Part shown: positions 4,619-25,112 of the stretch, one piece after another
Position numbering within the stretch: the stretch's first letter is position 1
How the letters are laid out: each line of letters starts with the position of its first letter
Source of the DNA: Amycolatopsis thailandensis
Lineage (GTDB): Bacteria; Actinomycetota; Actinomycetes; Mycobacteriales; Pseudonocardiaceae
Direction of reading: 5' to 3'
DNA length: 64,000 nucleotides
NCBI RefSeq assembly: GCF_002234405.1
Contig: NZ_NMQT01000073.1
Span: 124,001-188,000, forward strand
The notes under the pieces: model-generated
Database searches by the model: none
Seen by the model: the letters and a program-made list of their open reading frames with translations, nothing else
What the model was told of the DNA's origin: nothing
Translations under genes and position numbers: made by a program

Positions 4619-7600
4619 TCAGGGACCGTTGTGGATGAGCGAAGCCCACAGATCCGGCCGATCCGGGTGAGCGGCGCGCAGGTCCAGGGTGGCTTGCCGG
4701 ACGGCGTGGGCGGCGGAGTCGGCGGAAGGCTTTCCGTCCAGGTGCCGGTAGATCTCGCGCGCGGTGGTGGCCGCGATGTCGTCGGCGATCGGCCACAGGG
4801 TGGCGATGACGTGGCGGAAGCCCGCCAGCTGGAACGCCGACGCCAGGTGCAGCGACTCGTCGGCTTGAGCGATGCCCGGATTCGCGGTCGAGCAGGCGGA
4901 CAGGTAGGCGAGTTCGGCGTCGGCCAGCCGGAGACGGCTGATCTCGGACAGGGTCAGGACTTCGTCGTGGAGCTGGATTCCACTGCGGGAAGGGACGATC
5001 AGGTCGGCGTCCGCGTGACAGGCGAAATGGGCCCACGTCGCCGCGCTCAATTGGGCGAGGACGGCGTCGGCCGTGGCGTTCTCGTCGATCAGCAGCGGCA
5101 GGCCGGGGTGGGCGCTGTGAAGGTGTTCCGCTTCGCCGACGGTGGCCGGTAGCGGAGACGCGCCCGGCGCATCGCGGACGGCGACGGTCAGTTGCCTGCG
5201 TTCGGTCGACGGCGGACGGGATCGGGCGTGGGACAACGTGCGCAGGGTCGCCGTATAGGAGGAGACCACGGCGTCCAGCGCGCCCGGTTCGCCGGGACGC
5301 CCGGCGGCGTGCCACGGGAACAGGCCGAGCAGATCGGTCGGCATCCACCACACCCGTCGCGTGGCGGGTAAAGCGGTCAGGATCGGGGCGACGGCGACTT
5401 CCCACAGCCAGCCGAGTATTTCCGGGATGACCCGCCGCTGGTGCAGGACGGCGGCGAACCCGCTTCGCTGGTTGACGTCGATGAGGTGCTGGACCCGCTC
5501 GTGCAGTCCGGCGCCGCCGAGGCCGGGCAGGCGGACGAGGATCGGGTCGCCGGTGGCCGTGACGATGATCGCTTCGCCCTGGTGGAGGTTCGTGTTGACC
5601 AGGACCACCGCGCCATCGGCCGCCGCCGTCCGCAGTTCGGGGAACGCCGGTGTCGCGAGGGAATCGGTGCCGAGTTCGGCGACCAGCAGGATGCCCCGCC
5701 CTCGCTCGGCCGCCTCGACCGCACCCGCCGGATCGTCGAAGGCGCAGTGCGCGGCGATGCTTTCCCGCACCAGCCCCGTGTACTGGCCTATCCGGTATTC
5801 GCGGTCGCGCCAGTCCGCGCCCGACGGCGGCAGCGACGACAACAGCGCGGCGGCCGAGTCCAGCAGCGCCGCGGCCCGGCGGTGGTCACCGAGCACCGTC
5901 GCCACCCGGCCCGCCACGTGATACGAGCGCACCCGCTGCGTCGCCGAAGCCGTGGCGGCCGATTCCACGATCACGTCGATGAGGGGATCGAGACGGCCCT
6001 CGTCCACGGGACGGCCCGTGGTGTCGGCGAACTGGTGGTGCGCTTGGCCGAGGTTCGCGGACATCATGGCCAGTTCGGGGTGATCGGTCGGCAAGGACGC
6101 CAGCGCCTGCTCCTGGAACTCGATGCCGCGTCGCATGTCCGCCACGTCGGCGGAATGCCGGTACCGCAGTTGGTAGACGGTGTTGAGCTCGGACAGGCAC
6201 CGATGCCGGGTGGGGTGATCGGCGGGCAGCGTGTCCAGTGCCAGATGGGCGAGTTCGATCGCCCGGTTCAGGTTGGCGACGTCGCCGTGGTGGTTGTACT
6301 GGTCCCGGTACGCGGCGGACACCGTCCGGACGGTGACGATCCGCGTCGGGTCTTCGGCGGGAATGGCGGCCAGCGCCCGCTCACCCAGTTCGATGGCGTG
6401 CGCGCGGTCGGCGGACGCCTCGGTGTGCTCCGCCCGGCTCCGATAGGCGACGCAGAGATTGGACAGCGACGTGACGCGGGTCGGATGCCCCTCGGGCAGC
6501 AGCGCGAGTGCTTCCTCGTCGACGTCGATGGCCTGCTGGAGATCCGAGAGCAGGCCGGTGTGCCCGTAGAGTCGTTGCAGCGCGGGGCTGAGATTGCCCA
6601 GCGCGCTCGCGCGGTCCGGGGAACCGGCCGGACTCGCCGCCACCGCCAGCCTGCCGTAGTCGATCGCGCGCCGCAGCTGGGCCAGGTCCTGCGTCGCCTC
6701 GTACAGATAGCGACAGGCCAGGTTGAGCATGGACGCCGGCATACCGCGCCGCATGTCGCCGTCGGGCAGCGATGCCAGCGCGCGCTCACCCGACTTCACG
6801 GCACGGCGCAGATCGGCGACGTCGCCGAGCCGCTGGAATCGCTCGCGGTACAGCACGCACAGGTCGGTCAGCGGCTTGAACAGGCCCGGGTCCGCCGCGT
6901 CCGCCCGCTCCTCGAGGTCGATCGCGTGCCGCAGATCGGCGACCTCGCCCAGGCGCTCGTACCGGCGGAAGTGGATCGCGCCGACCCGGGCGAGACTGCT
7001 CGCGTGCTCCGGGTCCCCGGCGGGCGTCCGGGCCAAGACCCGCTCGGCGCAGTCGATCGCGGCGCTCAGGTCGCCGAGGTCGCCGGTCCTGATCGACCGC
7101 TCGCAATAGGTGTCGGCGAGATTGGACAGGCACGCCACGCCCTGGGGGTCGTCGGCGGGACACGAGGCCACCGCCGTCGTGGTCAGTTCGATCGAGCGGG
7201 TCAGATCCGGGATCGCGTCGGTCCGTCCGTAGCGGGCGCGATACGCCACTCCGAGATTCGACAGGATTCCCGCGAGTTCCTGGTGATCCGCGGGGAGGAA
7301 CCGGATCGCGCGTTCCCCGGTCTCGATGGCGTGCTCCAGATCGTCCACCTGGTGGGTGCGCCGGTAACGCCACTGATAGCCCACGATGAGCAGCGCGATC
7401 CGGCTGGCGGCGCGAGGGTCTTCGGTCCCGGCGACCGCCGCCGACAGCAGCATGATCCCGGCGTCCAAAAGCCGCGGCTCGGGATCACGTGACCCGGCGA
7501 GCAGCAGGTCGCGGCCGATCTCGGACTGGGAGTCCGCCTCGGCGGCCGGGCCGATGAGCGCCCGCACCGGCTCGGGCAGCGCGGCCGGCCGGTCCGCCAC

Positions 7601-7855
7601 CCGGGTGAGGAAAGTGAGAGACCTGGCCAATTCCGGGTATTTGCCGTCCGTGGTCAGCACGGAGCAACGGAAGAAATGCCACCAGCCGAGCACTTGGCAC
7701 GCGGCTGTCCCGAGATCGTCGCCGGACAGCGCTATCGGCGCCAAGGCGTCCGCGTCGGCCGTCGCCGCCGCCGTGAACAACTTTTCCGGCTCGCGCGAGC
7801 GTTGGAATTCGGCCAACCGTGCGGACAAACGATTCAACGCCTCATAATGTGCCAC
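4619..7855 (-). CDS. TPR-repeat CHAT-domain protein
   Basis: About 1078 residues from a GTG at 7855; the frame is open to 8167, but that part overlaps the divergent gene at 7901 and looks non-coding. The first two thirds are tandem tetratricopeptide repeats with a recurring pattern (HAIELGERALAAIPAEDPTR and variants). The C-terminus is a CHAT domain, a caspase-like cysteine protease fold, with the His-Cys dyad at His947 (HFACHAD) and Cys988 (LSACSTA). CHAT-TPR proteins act as effectors or adaptors in bacterial NTP-dependent conflict and signalling systems. The neighbouring divergent genes (Cys-motif protein, membrane protein) suggest a cassette. The exact start is uncertain. Confidence 0.88.
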   Translation of the reverse strand: MAHYEALNRLSARLAEFQRSREPEKLFTAAATADADALAPIALSGDDLGTAACQVLGWWHFFRCSVLTTDGKYPELARSLTFLTRVADRPAALPEPVRALIGPAAEADSQSEIGRDLLLAGSRDPEPRLLDAGIMLLSAAVAGTEDPRAASRIALLIVGYQWRYRRTHQVDDLEHAIETGERAIRFLPADHQELAGILSNLGVAYRARYGRTDAIPDLTRSIELTTTAVASCPADDPQGVACLSNLADTYCERSIRTGDLGDLSAAIDCAERVLARTPAGDPEHASSLARVGAIHFRRYERLGEVADLRHAIDLEERADAADPGLFKPLTDLCVLYRERFQRLGDVADLRRAVKSGERALASLPDGDMRRGMPASMLNLACRYLYEATQDLAQLRRAIDYGRLAVAASPAGSPDRASALGNLSPALQRLYGHTGLLSDLQQAIDVDEEALALLPEGHPTRVTSLSNLCVAYRSRAEHTEASADRAHAIELGERALAAIPAEDPTRIVTVRTVSAAYRDQYNHHGDVANLNRAIELAHLALDTLPADHPTRHRCLSELNTVYQLRYRHSADVADMRRGIEFQEQALASLPTDHPELAMMSANLGQAHHQFADTTGRPVDEGRLDPLIDVIVESAATASATQRVRSYHVAGRVATVLGDHRRAAALLDSAAALLSSLPPSGADWRDREYRIGQYTGLVRESIAAHCAFDDPAGAVEAAERGRGILLVAELGTDSLATPAFPELRTAAADGAVVLVNTNLHQGEAIIVTATGDPILVRLPGLGGAGLHERVQHLIDVNQRSGFAAVLHQRRVIPEILGWLWEVAVAPILTALPATRRVWWMPTDLLGLFPWHAAGRPGEPGALDAVVSSYTATLRTLSHARSRPPSTERRQLTVAVRDAPGASPLPATVGEAEHLHSAHPGLPLLIDENATADAVLAQLSAATWAHFACHADADLIVPSRSGIQLHDEVLTLSEISRLRLADAELAYLSACSTANPGIAQADESLHLASAFQLAGFRHVIATLWPIADDIAATTAREIYRHLDGKPSADSAAHAVRQATLDLRAAHPDRPDLWASLIHNGP

Positions 7856-7900
7856 CAGCCGATACCGTACCCAACACGGGAGAGAACGGGGTAGAACCGG

Positions 7901-8251
7901 ATGGACGACGCCGAACGGCAAGTGGTGGCACGGTTCTGCCTCGATCTGCCGAATCTGCGCGCCGAGGTCGCGCGGCTCGACGAAACGAAGCTCGCGCAAT
8001 TGACCCGGATAGAGCGGGCCGCGGCCGAAGGGCGCCCTATTTCCGGCCTGCTCAGCCGGTATTTCGGTATCGACCCGGCCACCGGAAACCGTTCGCTGCA
8101 CGGCGGACTGCCCGGCTCCGGCACCGGACGGGCCCACGAAGAACTGTTCGGCTGCCCGCAAGGCCATTGTTCGCGTGAGGAACGGCCGATTCCCGCCGGA
8201 CCGGTGCCCCGATGCGGGCTGACCGACTCGGCGATGAAGCGGCTTCGATGA
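7901..8251 (+). CDS. small protein with C-terminal CPxGHC motif
   Basis: 116 residues. The N-terminal half is helical (MDDAERQVVARFCLDLPNLR) and the C-terminus holds a Cys/His cluster, GCPQGHCSREERPIPAGPVP followed by RCGLTDS, which could bind zinc. Comparable short proteins often stand beside CHAT or other conflict-system genes in actinomycetes (from memory). It is divergent from the CHAT gene across about 45 bp and overlaps the next gene by ATGA, so it is co-translated with the membrane protein. No enzymatic motif seen. Confidence 0.75.
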   Translation: MDDAERQVVARFCLDLPNLRAEVARLDETKLAQLTRIERAAAEGRPISGLLSRYFGIDPATGNRSLHGGLPGSGTGRAHEELFGCPQGHCSREERPIPAGPVPRCGLTDSAMKRLR

Positions 8252-9141
8252 GCGACTTCTTCAAAGAACTGGCGAAAACCCTCGCGCAGCGGTGGGTCGG
8301 GCTGCTGTTGGTCCCCGGCGCGCTGTTCGTGGTGGGTGCGCTCGTCGGTGTCCGGCTCGGGCACGCGCACGCACTGGATCTTTCGATGGCGTCGCAGGCG
8401 TTCACGGCGGCGGCGACGTCCGTCGCGGGCCGGGCGGGCACCGTGCAGGCGGTCGTGTTGGTCGTGGCGCTGCTCGCGTCGGCCGGTGTCGGTCTGCTGG
8501 TCCAGGCCATGGCGGGGGTCACCCGTGGACTGTGGCTGGGGCAGTGGCCGGGAGCGATCCTGACGGCCCGGCGCGTCCGGAAATGGGAACAGCGCCTGCG
8601 GTACCGGCAGAAGCTGGAGGCGGCGGAACCGGCGGCGTCCCGGAGTGCCTCGGCGCAGGACAAGATCGATCGTGCCACCGCGCGGATGAACGCGGTCGCG
8701 ATGGCGCGGCCGGGGAGGCCGACCTGGATGGGCGACCGGATCCACGCCGTGGAGGCGATCGCGGCCGGACGCTATGGCCTGGATCTCCCGTTCGCGTGGC
8801 CCCGGCTGTGGCTCACCATGCCGGAGACCGCGCGGGCCGAGATCTCCGCCGCCAACGGGGCGTTCGCGGCGGCGGTCACGGTCGCCAGCTGGGCCTGGCC
8901 GACGCTGCTGCTCGGCGCGTTCTGGTGGCCCGCGATCGTGGTGGCGGTGGTGATCGGAACGACGGGCTGGGTCCGCGGCCGGGCCGCGATCACAGATCTG
9001 ACCGCGCTCGCCGAATCCGCGCTCGACCTCTACGGCTGCGCGCTGGCGACCGCTGTCGGTGTCGAGACCCAGCGGACCGCCGGGCCGATGGAGGTCGACG
9101 AGGGCGCGCAGGTGACCGCGATCTTCCGCAAGGGGCGATGA
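8248..9141 (+). CDS. multi-pass membrane protein of the CHAT cassette
   Basis: 297 residues starting at the ATG that overlaps the upstream stop. Hydrophobic segments near residues 17-35 (VGLLLVPGALFVVGALVG), 65-85, 200-218 and 222-240 predict about four membrane spans around a charged cytoplasmic loop (RRVRKWEQRLRYRQKLEAAE). No domain recognised. Position between the Cys-motif gene and the LuxR-type regulator, with four-base overlaps on both sides, points to one operon and possibly a membrane effector or anchor for the CHAT system (inference). Confidence 0.78.
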   Translation: MSDFFKELAKTLAQRWVGLLLVPGALFVVGALVGVRLGHAHALDLSMASQAFTAAATSVAGRAGTVQAVVLVVALLASAGVGLLVQAMAGVTRGLWLGQWPGAILTARRVRKWEQRLRYRQKLEAAEPAASRSASAQDKIDRATARMNAVAMARPGRPTWMGDRIHAVEAIAAGRYGLDLPFAWPRLWLTMPETARAEISAANGAFAAAVTVASWAWPTLLLGAFWWPAIVVAVVIGTTGWVRGRAAITDLTALAESALDLYGCALATAVGVETQRTAGPMEVDEGAQVTAIFRKGR

Positions 9142-11396
9142 AACGCGTGGCTGACGGTGGGCCCCTGACGAGTTACGTCGGCCGGGCGGAGGACGAGAAC
9201 GAGGTACGACGGCTGCTCGGCGTGGGACGACTGGTCACCTTGACCGGCGCCGGCGGTGCGGGCAAGACACGGCTGGCCGCCCAGGTCGCCAGTTCGCTCA
9301 CGCGGGCTTTCCCGGGCGGTGTGACGGTCGCCGGACTGGGTGAGCTGCGGGACGAACGTCTCGTCGCGCGCGCCGTCGCGGACAGCCTGGGCCTGCACGA
9401 CACGGCGGCGAGGACGGACCTGGAGGCCGTGGCGTCGTATCTGCGTCCTCGCCGTTCGCTGCTGGTGCTGGACAACTGCGAGCATCTCCTCACCGGCAGC
9501 GCGGAGCTGGTCACGACACTGTTGCGCGACTGTCCGGACCTCGTGCTCCTGGCCACCAGCCGCTGCTCCCTGGGGATCGCCGGTGAGCAGGTCTTCACGA
9601 TCCCGTCTCTGTCCTTGCCGTCCGAAGAGGCGAGGACACCGCGGGAGGCGCTCGCGTCCGGGGCGGTGCGGCTGTTCGCGGAGCGGGCGGGCAGCGTCCT
9701 GCCGTCGTTCGAGGTCACCGAAGACAACGTCGCGGACGTCGTCCGCCTCTGCCGACGGCTCGACGGACTGCCACTGGCGATCGAGCTCGCGGCGGCCCGG
9801 ATCCGCGTCCTGTCGCCTTCGCAGATCGCGGACCGGGTCGAGCGGAACTCGGCCGTGCTGGCCACCGGTCTCCGGCTGCCGGTCGAGCGGCACCGGACGC
9901 TGCGCGTCACCCTCGATTGGAGTCACTCCCTGTGCACCGCGACCGAGCGGACGGTCTGGGCACGCTGTTCGGTGTTCGCCGGGCAGTTCGACCTGTCCGC
10001 AGCCGAGGACGTCTGCGGCCTGTCCGAAGCGGCCGCGCTGGACGCGATCGACGGGCTGGTCGACAAATCGGTACTGATCCGTGTCGACGGCACGGACCGG
10101 GTCCACTACCGGATGCTCCGGCTCCTCCGTGAATACGGCGCACAACGGCTTTCCGACTCCGGTGACGAGCTCGCCGTGGCGAGGAAACACCGTGACCACT
10201 ACGCCCGGCTGGTCGAACAGGCTTCCGGCAGCTGGTTCGGACCCGGCCAGGACGAGGCGTACGAACGTCTGACGGCCGCGCACGCCGACCTCCGCGAAGC
10301 ACTGTCGTGGTCGCTCCGCACTCCTGAGGAAAGCCCGGTGGCGCTGGAGATGGTCGTCGGGGTGATCGAATACTGGCTGGCCCGCGGCGCGGCCTGGGAA
10401 GCGCGTGACTGGATCGACCGCGCGCTCGCCGCGATGCCGCCGGACTCGGCGGGCCGGGCCCGGGGTCTGGCGATCGCGTCCCTCTGCGCCGCGCTGCACG
10501 CGGATCTGCCGCGGGCCCGGGAGCGGTCGGCCGCCGCCGAGGCGATCGAGGACGACGACGCCGCGCCCTACGTCGCCCACGCGAGGGCGTTCGTGATGAT
10601 GCTGTCCACCGAGCCGAATTCACTGACCCACGCGGCGAAAGCCGTGCGGATCTTCGGCGAGCGGGGCGATGTTCGACGCCAGATGCATCCGATGTTCCTT
10701 CAGGGGGTCGCGCTGGCCTACCGAGGGGATCTTCCGGGGGCGCGGGCATTGCTGGGCTCGATGCGGTCGCTGTGCGAGGAGGCGGGGGAGTACCGGTATC
10801 GCTCTATGGCGCTGTTCGGATCCGGGGTCGCCGAAGTCGGTTTCGGCGGCGATCTCGACGAAGGCGAACGGTTCATCCGTGCCGCACTGGAGATCGACCT
10901 CCGCACGTCCGACGTGCTGTCCGCGGCGTACCGGGTCGACGGTCTCGCCTGGGTGGCCGCGCGGCGTGAGGACTGGGTCCGTGCCGCGGAACTGTTCGGA
11001 ACCGCCGCGACGCTCTGGGAGCGCTGCAATGCCGAACCCGACGTGGCCGTCTCGGCCACCCACCGGGCGTTTCACGAGGCCACCCGGAAAGCCTTGGGGG
11101 AGAAGAAGTTCGACGCCGCGTTCGCCGAAGGGCGGCGGCGGAATCCGCACGAGGTCCTGCACACTCGCCCGGTGGCGGCGCCTGACGGCGAACAGCGTGT
11201 CCTCCCGCCGCTGACCCAGCGCGAGACGGAGATCGCGCGGCTGGTGGCGGCGGGGCTGGGCAACCGGGAGATCGCGACGAGGCTGGTCATCGCCCGGCGG
11301 ACGGTGGAGACGCATCTCCAGCACATTTCGCACAAGCTCGACTTCACCAACCGGACGCAGCTGGCCGTCTGGGTCGCCGGGCAGGACCCGCTGTGA
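9138..11396 (+). CDS. STAND ATPase with LuxR-type DNA-binding domain
   Basis: 752 residues. An N-terminal P-loop, TLTGAGGAGKTRLAAQVA (GAGGAGKT at 37-44), and LLVLDNCEHL (Walker B) define an AAA/NB-ARC-like STAND domain; LDGLPLAIELAAARIR is the typical GLPL motif. A helical repeat region follows and the C-terminus (about 690-745) is a LuxR helix-turn-helix (LTQRETEIARLVAAGLGNRE). A large transcriptional regulator whose ATPase responds to a ligand. SD AAGGGG precedes the ATG, which overlaps the membrane-protein stop, so it may regulate this cassette. The stop codon lies inside the terminator stem that follows. Confidence 0.9.
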   Translation: MKRVADGGPLTSYVGRAEDENEVRRLLGVGRLVTLTGAGGAGKTRLAAQVASSLTRAFPGGVTVAGLGELRDERLVARAVADSLGLHDTAARTDLEAVASYLRPRRSLLVLDNCEHLLTGSAELVTTLLRDCPDLVLLATSRCSLGIAGEQVFTIPSLSLPSEEARTPREALASGAVRLFAERAGSVLPSFEVTEDNVADVVRLCRRLDGLPLAIELAAARIRVLSPSQIADRVERNSAVLATGLRLPVERHRTLRVTLDWSHSLCTATERTVWARCSVFAGQFDLSAAEDVCGLSEAAALDAIDGLVDKSVLIRVDGTDRVHYRMLRLLREYGAQRLSDSGDELAVARKHRDHYARLVEQASGSWFGPGQDEAYERLTAAHADLREALSWSLRTPEESPVALEMVVGVIEYWLARGAAWEARDWIDRALAAMPPDSAGRARGLAIASLCAALHADLPRARERSAAAEAIEDDDAAPYVAHARAFVMMLSTEPNSLTHAAKAVRIFGERGDVRRQMHPMFLQGVALAYRGDLPGARALLGSMRSLCEEAGEYRYRSMALFGSGVAEVGFGGDLDEGERFIRAALEIDLRTSDVLSAAYRVDGLAWVAARREDWVRAAELFGTAATLWERCNAEPDVAVSATHRAFHEATRKALGEKKFDAAFAEGRRRNPHEVLHTRPVAAPDGEQRVLPPLTQRETEIARLVAAGLGNREIATRLVIARRTVETHLQHISHKLDFTNRTQLAVWVAGQDPL

Positions 11397-15032: not shown

Positions 15033-16324
15033 TTCGCCAGGGCCCGTTCGACGGAAGCCCCGATGGCCAGCAGTTTCCGGTCTTCGCCGAGGGCACCGTC
15101 GAGCGCCAGCCCGGCGGGGAGGCCGTTCCGGTCACGCCCCATCGGCACGGTCAGGCCGGGGAAGCCCGCGATGCTGCCGTTCTGGCAGTTGCGGATGAAG
15201 GTCGCGAACGTCGGGACCGAGCGCCCGCGGAGAACGAAGTTCTCGACGGCCGAGAACTCCTTGGCCGTGGCCGGTGTCGTGGGAAAGGCCAGCGCGTCGA
15301 TGCCGGTCTCGCGGAAGATCCTCGCGTAGGTGCCGCGCAAGGCCGAACGAGTGGCGAGGGCGGCCTCGTAGACGGCCGGATCGACGCCCGGTACGACCGA
15401 GCCGGTGAAGATCGCCTGGACGTCGGCGGCGGCGACCTCACGAACGAGCCGTTCGAACGAGACACCGGGCACGTACTCGCGCAGATACGCCCGGAGCCCG
15501 GTGCCTGCTTCGTGGATCACCAACGGCATGCCCTGATCGGCACTGAGTTCGGCGAGCACGGTGTCGTCGATCGGCACCATCGTGACGCCCTCGGCGCGCA
15601 GGCGGAACAGCGTGGACTCCCAGAGTTCTTCGACGTCGGTTTCCAGATCGCCGGTCAGGAAGCGCTGGGGCACGCCCAGCCGGACCGCCGACGACGGGAT
15701 CCCGTCCAGGGGTTCCGGCTGTTCCGCCGCGAGGACCGAGTCGAGGAGCGCGAGATCGGTGACCGTGCGGGCGATCGGTCCGGCCGTGTCCCGTGTGCTG
15801 CTCAGCGGTGTCATGCCGTCGGACGGGTAGCGGCCCGTGGTGGGCCGGAACCCGCACACCCCGTTGAGCGCGGCGGGGACGCGCACCGATCCCCCGGTGT
15901 CGGTGCCCAGGCCCGCCGGGACGATGCCCGCCGCGACGGCGACCGCCGTCCCGCCGCTGCTGCCTCCGGCGAAGTGGAACGGCGAGCAGGCGTTGCGGAC
16001 CGGCCCCACCGGTGTCGTGTCGCAGGTGATGCCGAACGCGAGTTCGTGCATGGTCGCCTTGCCGATGACGGTGACGCCCGCGTCGATCAGGCGCCGGACC
16101 ACGGTCGCGTGCTCGCGCGGGACGTGGTCCGCCAGCGCCGGGGTGCCCGCGGTGTTCGGCATGCCCGCGACGTGGATGTTGTCCTTGACGACCATCGGAA
16201 CGCCCGCCAGCGGGCCGGCGAGTCCCGGTATGCGGTCCTCCGGCGCGAGGTGGGCGATGGCGTGGAGATCGTGCACTTCTTCCGCTCTCGAGCGGGTTTC
16301 CGAGGCGCTCCAAGCTCTCTTCAC
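15008..16324 (-). CDS. amidase signature family hydrolase
   Basis: 438 residues. The Ser-cisSer-Lys triad is visible: Lys47 (PMVVKDNI), Ser123 ([13 protein letters not shown]) and nucleophile Ser146 ([12 protein letters not shown]). It resembles indoleacetamide-hydrolase or AtzF-like amidases; substrate unknown. The start is 100 bp from the first gene of the divergent zincophore-type operon, and the Zur-like box lies in that spacer, so zinc might affect both directions (inference). The 3' end overlaps the LysR gene. Confidence 0.9.
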
Positions 16325-16361
16325 GGCGCCAGCTTAGCGTGACAAGGGACACAGTTAGCGA

Positions 16362-16382
16362 TAAAGACAATCATTTTCATTA
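16362..16382 (+). promoter_or_regulatory. Zur-type zinc operator
   Basis: A 21-bp element whose right half is CATTTTCATTA and left half TAAAGACAAT. It matches the palindromic actinobacterial Zur consensus recalled from Mycobacterium and Streptomyces (inverted TAATGAAAAT halves) at 19 of 21 positions. It is A/T rich in G/C-rich surroundings and lies 42 bp before the ATG of the SbnB-like gene, where a bound repressor would block transcription when zinc is plentiful. Confidence 0.8.
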
Positions 16383-16424
16383 AGCTCCGGCCGGATCCCG
16401 TCCCCCCGGAAAGGTCGATCGTTC

Positions 16425-17408
16425 ATGAACCCCGGCCCCTCGTTGCACATCCTCACCCGCAAGGATCTGCACAGCCTCGAACTCACCCCGCAAGAGGCGA
16501 TCACCCTGGTCGAAGACGGCTACCTGGCCTACGCGTCCGGAGCGTCGCGCAACCCCGCGAAGCTGATGGTGCCGATGCCGGATCCCGCGCGGGACGCCGT
16601 CGCGTACTCGATGCTCGGCTACGACGGCTCCCTGGAACAGGCCGCGTTCAAGACGAGCTACCGGCAGGGCGGCACGTCGGCGGAGAAGTACTACACGACG
16701 ATCACGCTCTACGACGACACCACCGGGCTGCCGTTCGCGTTCATGGACTGCCACCGCGTCGGCGCCACCCGCACGCCCGCGAGCACCGCCCTGATCGCGC
16801 GCTCCTGCGCCCGGCCTGGTGCGCGTTCCGCGCTCATGGTCGGCACCGGCGCGCAGGGGATCAGGACGCTGCCGTACCTGCTCACGGCGTTGCCGGAGCT
16901 CGAACGGCTGCGGCTGTTCGGCACCCATCCCGACGGCCTGCGCGACAGCGTCGCCGCGCTGAAGGAGCGGTTCCCGGAGCGCGAGGTCGAACTCGTCGAC
17001 GACGTCGAGGCCGCCGCGCGCGAGTCCGACATCGTGGTCGCCGCCTCCGGCCGGGCCGCGCATCCGAAGATCCGGCTCGGCTGGCTGCCGCCGGGCGGGC
17101 TGCTGATCTCGGTCGCCAGCAAGGGAGTCCAGGAGGGCACGCTCGCCGAAGCCGACTACACCGTGGCCACCAGTGGTGCCCAGGTCGAGGTGACCGGCCG
17201 GCGGATGGCGGGGCCGGACGGTGTTTTCCGGATCGACGCCGAACTTCCGGAGATCCTCGCCGGCCGCCTGCCAGGCCGTCGTGGCGACGAAGACCGGGTG
17301 TTCGCCTTCAGCAGCGGCATGATCATCACCGACATCCCGGTGGCGCACGCGCTGGCCGCCCGCGCCATCGCGGCGGGCCGCGGCCGCGAGGTGGCGCTGT
17401 GGACCTGA
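16425..17408 (+). CDS. ornithine cyclodeaminase/mu-crystallin family dehydrogenase, SbnB-like
   Basis: 327 residues. Family features: KTSYRQGGTSAEKYYTTITL, a Rossmann motif ALMVGTGAQGIRTLPYL (about 137-153) and SDIVVAASG. SbnB of staphyloferrin B synthesis oxidatively cleaves N-(2-amino-2-carboxyethyl)-glutamate to 2,3-diaminopropionate; a relative working in the reductive direction with oxaloacetate could build the second N-C bond of EDDS (inference). First gene behind the Zur-like box; SD GGAAAGG nine bases before the ATG. It overlaps the next gene by 10 bp. Confidence 0.87.
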   Translation: MNPGPSLHILTRKDLHSLELTPQEAITLVEDGYLAYASGASRNPAKLMVPMPDPARDAVAYSMLGYDGSLEQAAFKTSYRQGGTSAEKYYTTITLYDDTTGLPFAFMDCHRVGATRTPASTALIARSCARPGARSALMVGTGAQGIRTLPYLLTALPELERLRLFGTHPDGLRDSVAALKERFPEREVELVDDVEAAARESDIVVAASGRAAHPKIRLGWLPPGGLLISVASKGVQEGTLAEADYTVATSGAQVEVTGRRMAGPDGVFRIDAELPEILAGRLPGRRGDEDRVFAFSSGMIITDIPVAHALAARAIAAGRGREVALWT

Positions 17409-18745
17409 TCGACACCCTGTCCCCGCCGCTGCCCGCGCTCGAACGCCCTTGGGCGCACCGGCTGCGCGACTCGGAGATCCTGTGGGAGATCGCCCGCGGT
17501 GTCGGCGGTGGCCCGTTCCACGTCATCCATCCGGCCACGTTCGCCGAGAACCTCGGGGGAATGGTCGCGGCACTCGCCGCCGAGCGCGTCGACGGCACCG
17601 TCTACTACGGGAAGAAGGCGAACAAGGCGGCGGCCTGGCTGCGGGAATGCGTCCGCCCCGGCGCGGGGGTCGACGTCGCGAGCGTGCCCGAACTGGTGCA
17701 CGCCCTCGGCAACGGGGTGCGCGGGGAGGCGATCGGGGTGACCGGCGCCGCCAAACCGGACGGCCTCCTCTGGCTCGCCTTGCGGCACCACTGCCTGATC
17801 GCGGTGGACGCGGCCGACGAACTGGAACGCGTCGCGCGCCTGGCCGCCGAACTCGGTGAGACGGCCGAAGTGCTGCTGCGGGTCCGGCCGCCGTCCGCGC
17901 CGGAAAGCCGGTTCGGCTTCGCTCCCGACGCCTTGACCGCGGCCGTGCGAAGGTGCGCCGAACCGGTCGTCCTGCGCGGCTTCTCGTTCCATCTGGACGG
18001 CTACGATCCCGTGCCACGGGCGGAACTAGCCGCCTCCCTGATCGACCTGTGCCACGACGCCCGCGCACTCGGGCATCCGGCGTCGAAGATCAGTATCGGC
18101 GGCGGCGTCGCGGTGTCCTATGTGGACGCCGAGGATTGGGCGCGGTTCGAGGCCGGCAGGCACGACGGCTGGTTCCACGCCGGCCGCAACCCGCCCCGGA
18201 CCTATCCGTACCACCAGGCGCCGGTGGGCGCGGCCATGGTCACCGCCGTCCTGCGGCACGAGATCTCCGGGAAACCGCTCGCGGACCGCCTGCGCGAGTC
18301 CGGGATCGAGCTGCTGCTGGAGCCGGGCCGTGCCCTCGTCGACGGCGCCGGGTTCTCGGTTTTCCCGGTGCTGGGCTGCAAAGCCGCCGATGACCACTTG
18401 ATCACCACGGTCGCGGGCCTGTCCATGAGCCTGTCCGAACAGTGGAAGGGAAGCGAGTTCCTGCCCGATCCGGTCCTCGTGCGCCAGGACGGTCCTGGCG
18501 GCACGCCGGTGCGCACCATCGTCGCGGGTTCGAGCTGCATGGAGTACGACGTGCTGACCTGGCGCGCGGTGGAACTGCCCGCGCGGCCGAGGACCGGCGA
18601 CCTGCTCGTGTACCCGAACACGGCCGGGTACCAGATGGACAAGAACGAGAGCGGCTTCCACCAGCTTCCGTTACCGCCGAAGGTGGTGGTCGACGGCGAC
18701 CGCCGGCACCTCGACACCGACTACCCGATCCAGGAGATCCGATGA
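17399..18745 (+). CDS. PLP-dependent decarboxylase (DAP/ornithine decarboxylase group IV fold, SbnH-like)
   Basis: 448 residues, alanine-racemase-type TIM barrel plus beta domain. The PLP lysine is Lys73 in VYYGKKANKAAAW; SFHLDGYD and ISIGGGVAVSY are barrel motifs; LLLEPGRALVDGAG and AGSSCMEYDVL match the Glu-Pro-Gly-Arg and active-site Cys regions. Members decarboxylate diaminopimelate, ornithine or, for SbnH, a citryl-diaminopropionate siderophore intermediate. Here it would remove the serine-derived carboxyl group late in the pathway (inference). GTG start inside the upstream gene; ATGA overlap with the next. Confidence 0.88.
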   Translation: MDLIDTLSPPLPALERPWAHRLRDSEILWEIARGVGGGPFHVIHPATFAENLGGMVAALAAERVDGTVYYGKKANKAAAWLRECVRPGAGVDVASVPELVHALGNGVRGEAIGVTGAAKPDGLLWLALRHHCLIAVDAADELERVARLAAELGETAEVLLRVRPPSAPESRFGFAPDALTAAVRRCAEPVVLRGFSFHLDGYDPVPRAELAASLIDLCHDARALGHPASKISIGGGVAVSYVDAEDWARFEAGRHDGWFHAGRNPPRTYPYHQAPVGAAMVTAVLRHEISGKPLADRLRESGIELLLEPGRALVDGAGFSVFPVLGCKAADDHLITTVAGLSMSLSEQWKGSEFLPDPVLVRQDGPGGTPVRTIVAGSSCMEYDVLTWRAVELPARPRTGDLLVYPNTAGYQMDKNESGFHQLPLPPKVVVDGDRRHLDTDYPIQEIR

Positions 18746-19791
18746 CGATCGTCCAGCGCGCGTCCGACCTGATCGGGAGCACGCCGCTGCTGGAGCTCGC
18801 GCGCACCGGTACCGGGACGCGGCTCCTGCTCAAACTCGACCATCTGAACCCGACCGGTTCGTGCAAGGTCCGCATGGCCAGGCGGATGATCGACGACGCC
18901 GAGCTCGACGGCAGGCTGCGGCCGGGCGGGCACATCGTCGAGCCCACCTCCGGCAACACCGGGAACGGGCTCGCGCTGATCGCGCTGGAACGCGGCTACC
19001 GGTTCACCGCCGTGGTCGATCACCACGCGGCCCGCGAGAAGCTCCGGATGCTGCGCGCGCTGGGCGCGGAACTGGTGTTCGTCGAGTGCCCTTCGGACGG
19101 CGGGGTGAGCTCGGTCCAGCGGCGGCGGGTCGCGGCCCGGATCGCGGCGGAAACCGGGGCCTACCACCCCGATCAGCACAACCATCCCGGCAACGGCGAG
19201 GGGTACACCGGGCTGGCACTGGAACTGGTGCGGCAGCTGGGTTCCGTCGACGTGCTCGTCGCGGCGATCGGCACCGGCGGATCCCTGTGCGGGACGGCCC
19301 GCGCCCTGCGCGCGGCGGGAGCGGGCACGCACGCGGTGGCCGTCGAACCCGTCGGTTCCATCATCTTCGGTGGCGCGCCGGGGATCTATCACCAGACCGG
19401 GGCGGGCAGTCCCGCCGGGTTCCCGATCGGCGACAACGTGGACCGGTCGGTGATCGGCGAAGCCCACCGCGTTTCCGACAGCGACGCCTTCGCCGGAGCC
19501 CGCGTCGTCGCCCGGCGGACCGGTGTGCTGGTCGGCGGCACCACCGGCGGCGCGATCCACGTCGCCCTGCGGCGGCTTTACGCGTACCCGGCCGGAAGTC
19601 TCGTCGTGGTGCTGTGCAACGACGCCGGGGAGAAATACCTCGACTCGGTCTACGACGACGAATGGTTGCGCGCCAGGGGTGTGCTCGACGAACTCGCCCA
19701 CCGCCGGATGGAGCGCTGGTTCACCACCTACGCCGAGTCGGTCCGGGTGGCGACTCGTGACCGGCAGGCCCGGGTGGCGGTGGCGGCGTGA
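18742..19791 (+). CDS. cysteine synthase family PLP enzyme, SbnA-like
   Basis: 349 residues, fold-type II PLP enzyme. PLP lysine Lys42 in LNPTGSCKVRMA, substrate/PLP loop EPTSGNTGNGLA, phosphate loop GTGGSLCGTARA. SbnA condenses O-phospho-L-serine with L-glutamate by beta-replacement; an aspartate-using relative would make the first half of the EDDS skeleton (inference from the operon). The protein carries a C-terminal extension (DDEWLRARGVLDELAHRRME) also seen in SbnA-type enzymes. Overlaps both neighbours by four bases. Confidence 0.88.
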   Translation: MTIVQRASDLIGSTPLLELARTGTGTRLLLKLDHLNPTGSCKVRMARRMIDDAELDGRLRPGGHIVEPTSGNTGNGLALIALERGYRFTAVVDHHAAREKLRMLRALGAELVFVECPSDGGVSSVQRRRVAARIAAETGAYHPDQHNHPGNGEGYTGLALELVRQLGSVDVLVAAIGTGGSLCGTARALRAAGAGTHAVAVEPVGSIIFGGAPGIYHQTGAGSPAGFPIGDNVDRSVIGEAHRVSDSDAFAGARVVARRTGVLVGGTTGGAIHVALRRLYAYPAGSLVVVLCNDAGEKYLDSVYDDEWLRARGVLDELAHRRMERWFTTYAESVRVATRDRQARVAVAA

Positions 19792-21170
19792 GCACGGTGG
19801 TCCGGACACGCGGCTACCGGGCGCTCGTCGCGCTGGCGGCGCCGATCGCGGGCATCCAGCTGGCGCAGGTGGCGCTCACCAGTGTCGACCTGGCCATGCT
19901 CGGCCTGCTCGGGGTGACCGCGGTGGCGGCGGGCGGACTGGCGATCCTGCTCTACAACCAGATCCGCACTATGTGCGTCGGCATGGTCACCGGCGTCGGG
20001 AACCTCGTGGCCGCGGCGGCCGGGGCGGGAGAACTCCGCACCGGTACGGACGGGCTCGACGAGCGCGCGCGGGAGGAGATCCGGTCGCTCCTGCGGTCGG
20101 CCCTGCTCGTCGCGACCCTGACCGCGGCGGTCGGCGCCGCCGTCCTTTGTGGACTCGCGGCCGCGTTGCCGTTGCTGGGCCAGCAGCCGGAGATCGTCTC
20201 GCTGGCCAGGGCGATGATGTTCGCGCTGGCGGGCGGGCTCTTCCCGATGGTGTGGCTGAACGTGGTGCGGCAGTTCGCCGTCGGGCTGCGCCGTCCGGGA
20301 TCCCTGCTCGCGGTGACCCTCGTGTCGATCGCGGTCAACGCCGCGCTCAACGGCGCTTTCATCTACGGCTGGGCGGGTCTGCCCGAACTCGGCGTCACCG
20401 GGATCGGCCTGGCGACGACGCTGGTCCAGTTCTTCACGCTCGCCGTGTTCGCCTCGGCCGTCCGCCGGGACCCGCTGCTGCGGCCCATGGTTTCGCTCGC
20501 GCTCTGGCGCGCGGATCCCGCGGTGGTCCGGCGCGTCGTCCGGCACGGGACGCCGATCTGTTTCACCTACGGCTCGGAGGCCGCGATCACCTCGATCGCG
20601 ACGATGCTGATGGGTGCTTTCGGCCCGGCGATGCTCGCCGCGTCGAACGTCGCGAATCAGCTCGCCTACATCGTCTACCAGGTCAACATCGGGCTTTCGC
20701 AAGGATCGTCCATTTTGGTCAGTCGTGAGGTTTCCCGCGGCGAACGGCGTCAGGCCCCGGTGATCGCCCGGCAGGCGTTCACGCTTTCCTGGTCTTTCAT
20801 GGCGGTGGTGAGCCTGGGATACCTGGTGGTGCCGGGGGCCCTGTTGTGGCCGTTCCTGCACGACGAGACCGACGCGGTGGTACTCGGCACCGCGTCGACG
20901 CTGTTGCTGTTCGCCGTCGCGCAGCAGTACAGCAAGGGAACCCAGAACATCCTCGTCGGCTTGCTGCGCGGGCTCGGCGACACCGTTTCCGGGCTTCGTT
21001 GCACGCTCGTCGGGTACTGGGCCGTCGGGGTGCCCGCGATGTTCTTGTGCGCCTACGTGTTCGCTTGGGGCGGTTGGGGTGTTTGGGCCGGTCTGTGCCT
21101 CGGTTTCGCGGCGACCGCCGTCCTGCTCGGGCGACGGTTCGCCGGTTCCGTGACCGGGGTGGCGCGGTAG
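19788..21170 (+). CDS. MATE family efflux transporter
   Basis: 460 residues with about 12 hydrophobic segments, beginning ALVALAAPIAGIQLAQVALT and VDLAMLGLLG, typical of MATE/DinF antiporters. Last gene of the operon, GTGA overlap with the SbnA-like gene; most likely exports the metal-chelating product. Its final 118 bp overlap the convergent TPR gene, which is unusually long for a convergent overlap but both frames look genuine. Confidence 0.9.
   Translation: MSTVVRTRGYRALVALAAPIAGIQLAQVALTSVDLAMLGLLGVTAVAAGGLAILLYNQIRTMCVGMVTGVGNLVAAAAGAGELRTGTDGLDERAREEIRSLLRSALLVATLTAAVGAAVLCGLAAALPLLGQQPEIVSLARAMMFALAGGLFPMVWLNVVRQFAVGLRRPGSLLAVTLVSIAVNAALNGAFIYGWAGLPELGVTGIGLATTLVQFFTLAVFASAVRRDPLLRPMVSLALWRADPAVVRRVVRHGTPICFTYGSEAAITSIATMLMGAFGPAMLAASNVANQLAYIVYQVNIGLSQGSSILVSREVSRGERRQAPVIARQAFTLSWSFMAVVSLGYLVVPGALLWPFLHDETDAVVLGTASTLLLFAVAQQYSKGTQNILVGLLRGLGDTVSGLRCTLVGYWAVGVPAMFLCAYVFAWGGWGVWAGLCLGFAATAVLLGRRFAGSVTGVAR

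Positions 21171-22367: not shown

Positions 22368-25112
<2,745 letters not shown>

Follow-up and report, generated by a model that had tools for sequence, protein, structure and literature searches.

The operon and its upstream box

The stretch of DNA analysed here, called the window, comprises 64,000 nucleotides of Amycolatopsis thailandensis (RefSeq assembly GCF_002234405.1, contig NZ_NMQT01000073.1, positions 124,001 to 188,000), and contains a four-gene operon headed by a Zur-like box. Very probably this is the aes operon, which would make and export the chelator [S,S]-ethylenediaminedisuccinate (EDDS) and be repressed by zinc-loaded Zur at the box. The orthology to the Amycolatopsis japonica locus, the enzyme families, and the box held in common with the azt zinc importer are directly supported; the substrates, the order of the steps, the product, and the repression by Zur are what we infer from them. 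The features, in window positions, are as follows.

16362..16382, plus strand: Zur-like box TAAAGACAATCATTTTCATTA, a 21-mer with a 15-nt core at 16365-16379, 42 nt before the ATG of the dehydrogenase gene
16425..17408, plus strand: SbnB-like dehydrogenase of the ornithine cyclodeaminase/mu-crystallin (OCD) family, 327 aa (Pfam OCD_Mu_crystall)
17399..18745, plus strand: pyridoxal phosphate (PLP) decarboxylase, 448 aa, GTG start, 10-nt overlap with the dehydrogenase gene (Pfam Orn_Arg_deC_N)
18742..19791, plus strand: SbnA-like PLP synthase, 349 aa, 4-nt overlap with the decarboxylase gene (Pfam PALP)
19788..21170, plus strand: MATE-family exporter, 460 aa, GTG start, 4-nt overlap with the synthase gene (Pfam MatE)

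The four genes span 16425-21170, and every neighbouring pair overlaps. Gene starts were picked from the overlap with the preceding gene and from orthologues, and the start of the SbnA-like gene is the ATG at 18742, internal to a longer open reading frame (ORF) listed from 18442. An earlier note on this DNA had described overlapping genes of these four kinds beginning 42 bp after the box, and the ORFs and Pfam matches confirm that description. An OCD-family search of the genome with the dehydrogenase returned a single match, the query itself.

The best NCBIfam models are SbnA for the synthase (227.2 bits, cut-off 349.95), SbnB for the dehydrogenase (98.7 bits, cut-off 326.9), and LysA, below its cut-off, for the decarboxylase; the model of the iminosuccinate reductase BhcD also matches the SbnB-like protein, far under cut-off. 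Because the SbnA and SbnB matches stay under their cut-offs, the synthase and dehydrogenase may be relatives of these enzymes with a job of their own. Staphyloferrin B, which the earlier note had thought an unlikely product, was rejected on the same equivalog cut-offs. The window shares with the sbnA/sbnB/sbnH set of staphyloferrin B the synthase and dehydrogenase families and a PLP decarboxylase, presumably SbnH-like, but differs in the missed cut-offs, in a decarboxylase that best matches LysA, and in the Zur-like box. No NRPS-independent siderophore (NIS) synthetase was found among the 10 window proteins run against Pfam, a scan that covered those 10 alone.

Orthology to a locus of the EDDS producer Amycolatopsis japonica

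An aes operon of A. japonica for [S,S]-EDDS was reportedly described by Spohn et al. in 2016. In the present analysis, in which L-numbers label loci and G-numbers label genomes, A. japonica is represented by G020, whose 92,539-bp second contig is 100% identical to plasmid NZ_CP008954.1 over the 20 kb compared. Its locus L034 has the same gene content in identical order, with protein identities to the window of 96, 92, 95, and 91% over dehydrogenase, decarboxylase, synthase, and MATE protein, and it has the amidase, LysR, tetratricopeptide repeat (TPR), and Fur neighbours found in the window. An identical box core stands 45 bp ahead of the first gene, the same distance as in the window, and no difference in layout was seen. 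Judged by sequence, the window thus has both the orthologous four genes in order and the Zur-like box before the first gene that mark an aes operon. The earlier note had proposed a resemblance to the EDDS operon of A. japonicum and named low identity to the aes proteins as the observation that would speak against it; no such low identity was seen, and syntenic orthology and the shared box support the resemblance. Zur control of EDDS in A. japonica has been described (PMC9252823, PMC4993170), and the EDDS genes were discovered via Zur boxes (PMC4993170, PMC13379591).

Predicted control by zinc

The box core agrees with TGAAAATCATTTTCA at 13 of 15 positions and with TGANAATNATTNTCA at all but one. 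The motif strings and thresholds were chosen by us, with consensuses for Zur, Fur, and IdeR taken as background. When the 9.35-Mb genome was scanned with TGANAATNATTNTCA, two sites were found at one mismatch or fewer and none in a reversed-pattern control; at two mismatches or fewer there were 20 sites against 7 in the control, and 11 of the 18 further two-mismatch sites fall within predicted ORFs. One further two-mismatch site (L073) sits between two divergent genes. A Zur-like core beyond chance therefore precedes the operon, as the earlier note had claimed.

The second strong box of the genome sits between the divergent permease gene aztB and ATPase gene aztA. AztB (368.7, cut-off 280) and AztA (246.5, cut-off 220) pass their NCBIfam cut-offs, as does the binding protein AztC, encoded on the permease side (379, cut-off 350). 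With the one other strong box at this importer, the motif is tied to zinc by the genome itself, which backs the zinc control proposed earlier, and the operon is probably switched off by zinc. The A. japonica genome also has two strong boxes (control 0), both identical in sequence to the two of the window's genome, and the box is kept in all nine relatives of the same layout (L031-L039).

Several observations weigh against this account of operon and box. The box is absent before the four genes in L044 and L047-L050. The candidate for Zur in the genome is a 139-aa Fur-family gene that overlaps an ArsR/SmtB-type gene, an arrangement which we take to mark Zur; it reaches 37.8 bits with the NCBIfam Zur model (cut-off 167) and scores higher with Fur models, likewise below cut-off. 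Our equation of L034 with the published aes operon (Spohn 2016) is itself an assumption. Finally, four-gene operons related to aes carry an annotation for EDHA, another aminopolycarboxylate (PMC10702961). EDHA is a hydroxyarginine conjugate.

Two alternatives follow from such points. The product of the four genes might not be EDDS but some other aminopolycarboxylate of its class, similar to EDHA or derived from diaminopropionate: EDHA clusters have likewise been described with four genes named AesA-D (PMC10702961), and the SbnA and SbnB matches are under cut-off, but protein identities of 91-96% to A. japonica and the complete synteny argue for EDDS, and EDHA is described as iron-responsive (PMC10702961) whereas the window has a Zur-like box and an IdeR-like match of 11/19 at best. 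We regard a product other than EDDS as very unlikely. Even less credence is due to the idea that a Fur-family sensor of peroxide or iron recognises the box, such as the product of the PerR/FurA-like gene at 22426-22854, so that the operon would answer to iron or peroxide. Fur-family boxes resemble each other, and that gene lies 1.3 kb downstream of the operon; yet the sole other strong site is the one at azt, the IdeR-like match at the operon is the poor one just given, and the IdeR-like boxes of relatives go with another branch of these clusters, described below. Control by the nearby Fur-like gene was for its part rejected in view of the strong box at the azt importer. The PerR/FurA-like assignment comes from Pfam and NCBIfam; the gene is followed by an ORF that resembles katG by eye, the pair spanning 22426-25112, and a second PerR-like gene of the genome is found at C415 (L156).

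Distribution among relatives

In a survey of 80 genomes of the genus, an SbnB-like protein of at least 89% identity was found in 17, the window's included, one of 64-65% in 3, and one of 40-41% in 4; the order dehydrogenase, decarboxylase, synthase, MATE is kept in 19 of the 25 genus loci extracted. A scan of the genome collection by dehydrogenase alignment, whose count is silent on loci that have no dehydrogenase, gave 63 loci, 58 of which have the complete set of four genes in the usual order. The other five are L094, L136, and the short or partial contigs L099, L147, and L148. L094 (Amycolatopsis anabasis, 8531-9889) has no SbnA-like gene in place, and a different PALP-family gene (34% identity) lies upstream of its SbnB-like gene. 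L136, on an Agrobacterium vitis pTi contig, has aes-type dehydrogenase, decarboxylase, and synthase genes with a SerK-like gene and no MATE gene, followed by a TIM-barrel gene and then a family-5 ABC importer. In L114 (Bradyrhizobium, 7372-9726), a TonB-dependent receptor gene lies immediately upstream of the aes-type genes.

The SbnB-like genes of 40-41% identity belong to a rearranged related operon (L051-L054, in G007, G061, G059, and G034; in L053 at about 8150-9550) with the order decarboxylase, SbnB-like, class I/II aminotransferase, SbnA-like, and ABC transporter genes (families from L051), one of the transporter genes having a histidine-rich start. Zur-like matches of 12-13/15 lie nearby in L051 and L053, and none in L054. 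This operon may possibly specify another zinc chelator. The spread of aes-type clusters as such is not new, because earlier work reported them, as EDHA clusters, from Nocardia brasiliensis, Corynebacterium, and Streptomyces (PMC10702961), and one of the antiSMASH 7 rules covers aminopolycarboxylic acid metallophores (PMC10320115).

Predicted iron and zinc branches

Importer types were assigned from neighbour clusters and from Pfam on representatives. The first type (L095) consists of a family-5 binding protein, two permeases, and two ATPases, encoded ahead of the dehydrogenase gene; its binding protein (L040) has PDB matches that include NikA, YntA, AppA, and further proteins that bind nickel or peptides, and it matches the NikA and CntA models of NCBIfam below cut-off. 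The second type is a Peripla_BP_2 and FecCD set. Boxes were then scored in 55 actinobacterial loci (Zur-like, at least 12/15; IdeR-like, at least 14/19), a set from which L099, L147, and L148 (short or partial), L121 and L123 (near-duplicates), the proteobacterial loci, and repeat loci of the genus were left out. For L034-L038, L140, and L145 we assigned the importer type manually. The rule needs a recognised binding-protein cluster, and some loci counted as having no importer may hold one: L098 and L128 carry a FecCD-cluster ORF, and L132 has a divergent family-5 binding protein.

Zur-like boxes occur in 15 of 16 loci with the type-1 importer and in none of 8 with the FecCD type, and IdeR-like boxes in 1 of 16 and 8 of 8, respectively (Fisher p = 1.2e-5, relatedness ignored). 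Among the 30 loci with neither importer by the rule, 16 have a Zur-like and 4 an IdeR-like box (one has both); a single Corynebacterium locus holds both importer types. Neither box was found in 11 of the 55, including A. coloradensis L089, where a box lies about 0.7 kb upstream, beyond the scanned stretch. In shuffled regions a Zur-like box appeared in 0.5-0.9% of trials and an IdeR-like match of at least 14 in 5 of 1100, and reversed motifs gave 1/55 and 0/55.

A tree of the three enzymes (FastTree, 67 tips, midpoint root) was built with L141 omitted, its OCD gene being split between two frames. One change of box type suffices for the 43 labelled tips, and 500 label shuffles need at least seven; L098, which has both boxes and lies inside the Zur-box clade, was unlabelled in this count, and L144, whose Zur-like site is outside the scanned stretch, was relabelled by hand. 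The common ancestor of the Zur-box tips subtends 51 tips, none of them labelled IdeR only, with a local support of 1.0, and the window lies within this branch. One chelator core is, by these sequence comparisons, split into a predicted iron branch, with an IdeR-like box and a FecCD-type importer, and a predicted zinc branch with a Zur-like box, and in the zinc branch a putative five-gene NikA/CntA-like importer often stands between box and operon. In line with the iron branch, Nocardia mangyaensis has been described as having an aminopolycarboxylate cluster with a MATE gene and predicted iron control (PMC10920908).

Two further observations concern boxes near aes-type genes. In L132 (Streptomyces sp. 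HNM0575), a 19/19 match to one of the IdeR-like motifs used lies 319 bp before the first aes-type gene and adjoins the divergent family-5 binding-protein gene. In five Gram-negative loci (L103, L105, L117, L118, and L141), motifs of the proteobacterial Zur type lie close to importer genes or to the head of the operon; no shuffled control was run for them, and nothing is concluded.

Probable loss of the importer

In the importer-bearing locus L040, the binding-protein gene directly follows the box and the last of the ATPase genes extends into the dehydrogenase gene, and both L040 and L042 have the amidase and TPR neighbours of the window. The importer occupies the same place in the operon in Kribbella, Gordonia, and Nocardia. 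Relatives of this kind strongly suggest that the window's operon descends from a nine-gene operon that included the five-gene importer. Two stretches of the window bear on its removal.

16319..16393, plus strand: homologous to the box and promoter region before the binding-protein gene of L040 (local score 93, maximum 34 in 1000 shuffles)
16395..16424, plus strand: perhaps what remains of the 3' end of the importer ATPase gene (score 37, maximum 40 in 1000 shuffles, not significant alone)

The first match ends at the first base of the binding-protein start codon, and the second stretch now contains a likely ribosome-binding site. The loss is not visible from the window alone and is read from relatives. 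In L033, L038, and L039 the box and about 14 nt of the start of the binding-protein gene are followed by sequence matching the ATPase-gene tail, the gene itself being absent (left end 89-100, right end 84-110, shuffled maximum 40), and broken pieces of the binding-protein gene remain in A. coloradensis. Three Nocardia loci (L102, L104, and L106, from Nocardia ninae, N. tenerifensis, and N. suismassiliense) have the N-terminus of the binding protein, signal peptide included, joined in frame to sequence that matches the final part of the importer block, forming fusion leaders of 43-44 aa that stay open to a TGA overlapping the ATG of the dehydrogenase gene; translational coupling may have been kept there after the deletion. 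The right-hand match of these leaders is about 30 nt long (scores 45-65, shuffled maxima 37-49), and the three amount to about two observations, L102 and L106 being near-identical. Copy 2 of N. transvalensis keeps roughly 170 bp from the 5' end of the binding-protein gene, with no clear right end. The deletion scar was also looked for in L115, where none was found, and in L133, which has the left end only.

The best relative of the importer's binding protein elsewhere in the window's genome has 31% identity over 287 aa, and the matches in four carriers, the query's own genome not counted, are 85-98%. A move of the importer to another place in the genome was rejected on this ground, other kinds of importer being possible. 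No importer of the relatives' type, which would complete a zincophore system, was found in the genome, whether inside the operon or outside it. Seven importer-less Nocardia genomes give partial best matches (E 1e-19 to 8e-23), and three carrier genomes, one of them the query's own, give E 0. Because relatives of 44% (on another contig) and 37% are present in Saccharothrix (L100) and Actinosynnema (L092), respectively, loss is unproven in these two.

The layout of the window might instead be the older one, the importer having been gained by its carriers and never present in the window's lineage. Its scattered presence in the zinc-branch actinobacterial loci (16 present, 23 absent, at least eight changes on the tree) can be read that way, and two features of the window count against a loss: the right-hand remnant is not significant, and the left match stops at the start codon. 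We nevertheless consider this history unlikely, given the ATPase-gene tails left without a gene in L033, L038, and L039, the broken pieces in A. coloradensis, the in-frame leaders of the three Nocardia loci, and the shared operon position of the importer in three other genera. Since relatives keep remains of both ends and no close binding protein is left in the genome, a deletion accounts best for the layout, and the window's clade probably lost the five-gene importer in this way. Such losses may have happened often, the remains being limited to the window's clade, A. coloradensis, and two Nocardia lineages. In its widest form, the proposal is that the A. japonica-type EDDS operon, the zinc-regulated case known for chelators of this class, is the importer-less remnant of a nine-gene Zur operon, from which a NikA/CntA-like importer for Zn-EDDS was excised repeatedly (in the window's clade, A. 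coloradensis, and at least two Nocardia lineages), with synthesis, export, and, where remains are seen, the box being kept; selection would then have favoured secretion of EDDS without a cognate receptor, zinc returning via Azt or EDDS withholding zinc from others. We hold this wider proposal to be evenly poised between right and wrong.

Proposed biosynthetic route

The SbnA-like enzyme would first join O-phosphoserine and L-aspartate to N-(2-amino-2-carboxyethyl)aspartate, and the decarboxylase would then strip off the carboxylate that stems from serine, leaving ethylenediamine-monosuccinate. The SbnB-like enzyme, working in the reductive direction, would couple the free amine with oxaloacetate, adding the second succinyl arm of EDDS, which the MATE protein would export; zinc-loaded Zur would repress the operon at the box. 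Decarboxylation should precede the second coupling because PLP decarboxylases require a primary amine, a group that the intermediate with both couplings lacks. BhcD, whose model matches the SbnB-like protein, is an iminosuccinate reductase and, judged by its name, acts on a C4 imine.

Among 15 proteobacterial loci, at least 8 have a small SerK-like gene as part of the cluster; in most of them it precedes the dehydrogenase gene, and in L119 it follows the importer genes. The likeness was tested on a single representative, L103 (PDB 5x0b, E 4e-7; NCBIfam SerK, E 3.6e-12, below cut-off). O-phosphoserine, the substrate that the earlier note had suggested, gains support from these genes, since SerK is a free serine kinase.

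Comparison with other chelator systems

Clusters of the cnt type, which make opine-like zincophores, have a nicotianamine-synthase-like enzyme, CntL, that is not among the window's four genes. They resemble the clusters studied here in that zincophore clusters carry Opp-type or FecCD-type importers, and Yersinia pestis is described as a zincophore producer with a broken importer (PMC7438024). The binding protein of the relatives' type-1 importer is NikA/DppA/OppA-like, as is EppA (PMC7312458), whose nearest folds are reported to be NikZ and AppA, two proteins that also match the type-1 binding protein by sequence. EppA differs in serving EDTA (ethylenediaminetetraacetate) degradation, with reported uptake of the metal-free chelator (PMC7312458). 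It is not named among the best 60 of 79 PDB matches of the relatives' binding protein, and the likeness is one of description.

Implications

The window's operon appears to be an EDDS operon of known kind and extends the list of likely EDDS producers by one strain. In the literature searched, from which the original EDDS and EDHA papers (Spohn) fell outside coverage, no description was found of an importer in EDDS clusters or of a split between iron and zinc. That split would mean one chelator core, each branch of which has its own regulator box and importer type. For strains of the window's layout, zinc might be handed to the Azt importer outside the cell, an unrelated importer might serve, or EDDS might keep zinc from others. 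The importer of the relatives is a testable candidate for the Zn-EDDS uptake system, and its suggested loss in A. japonica-type strains bears on whether EDDS acts as a private zinc shuttle or as a shared or hostile chelator.

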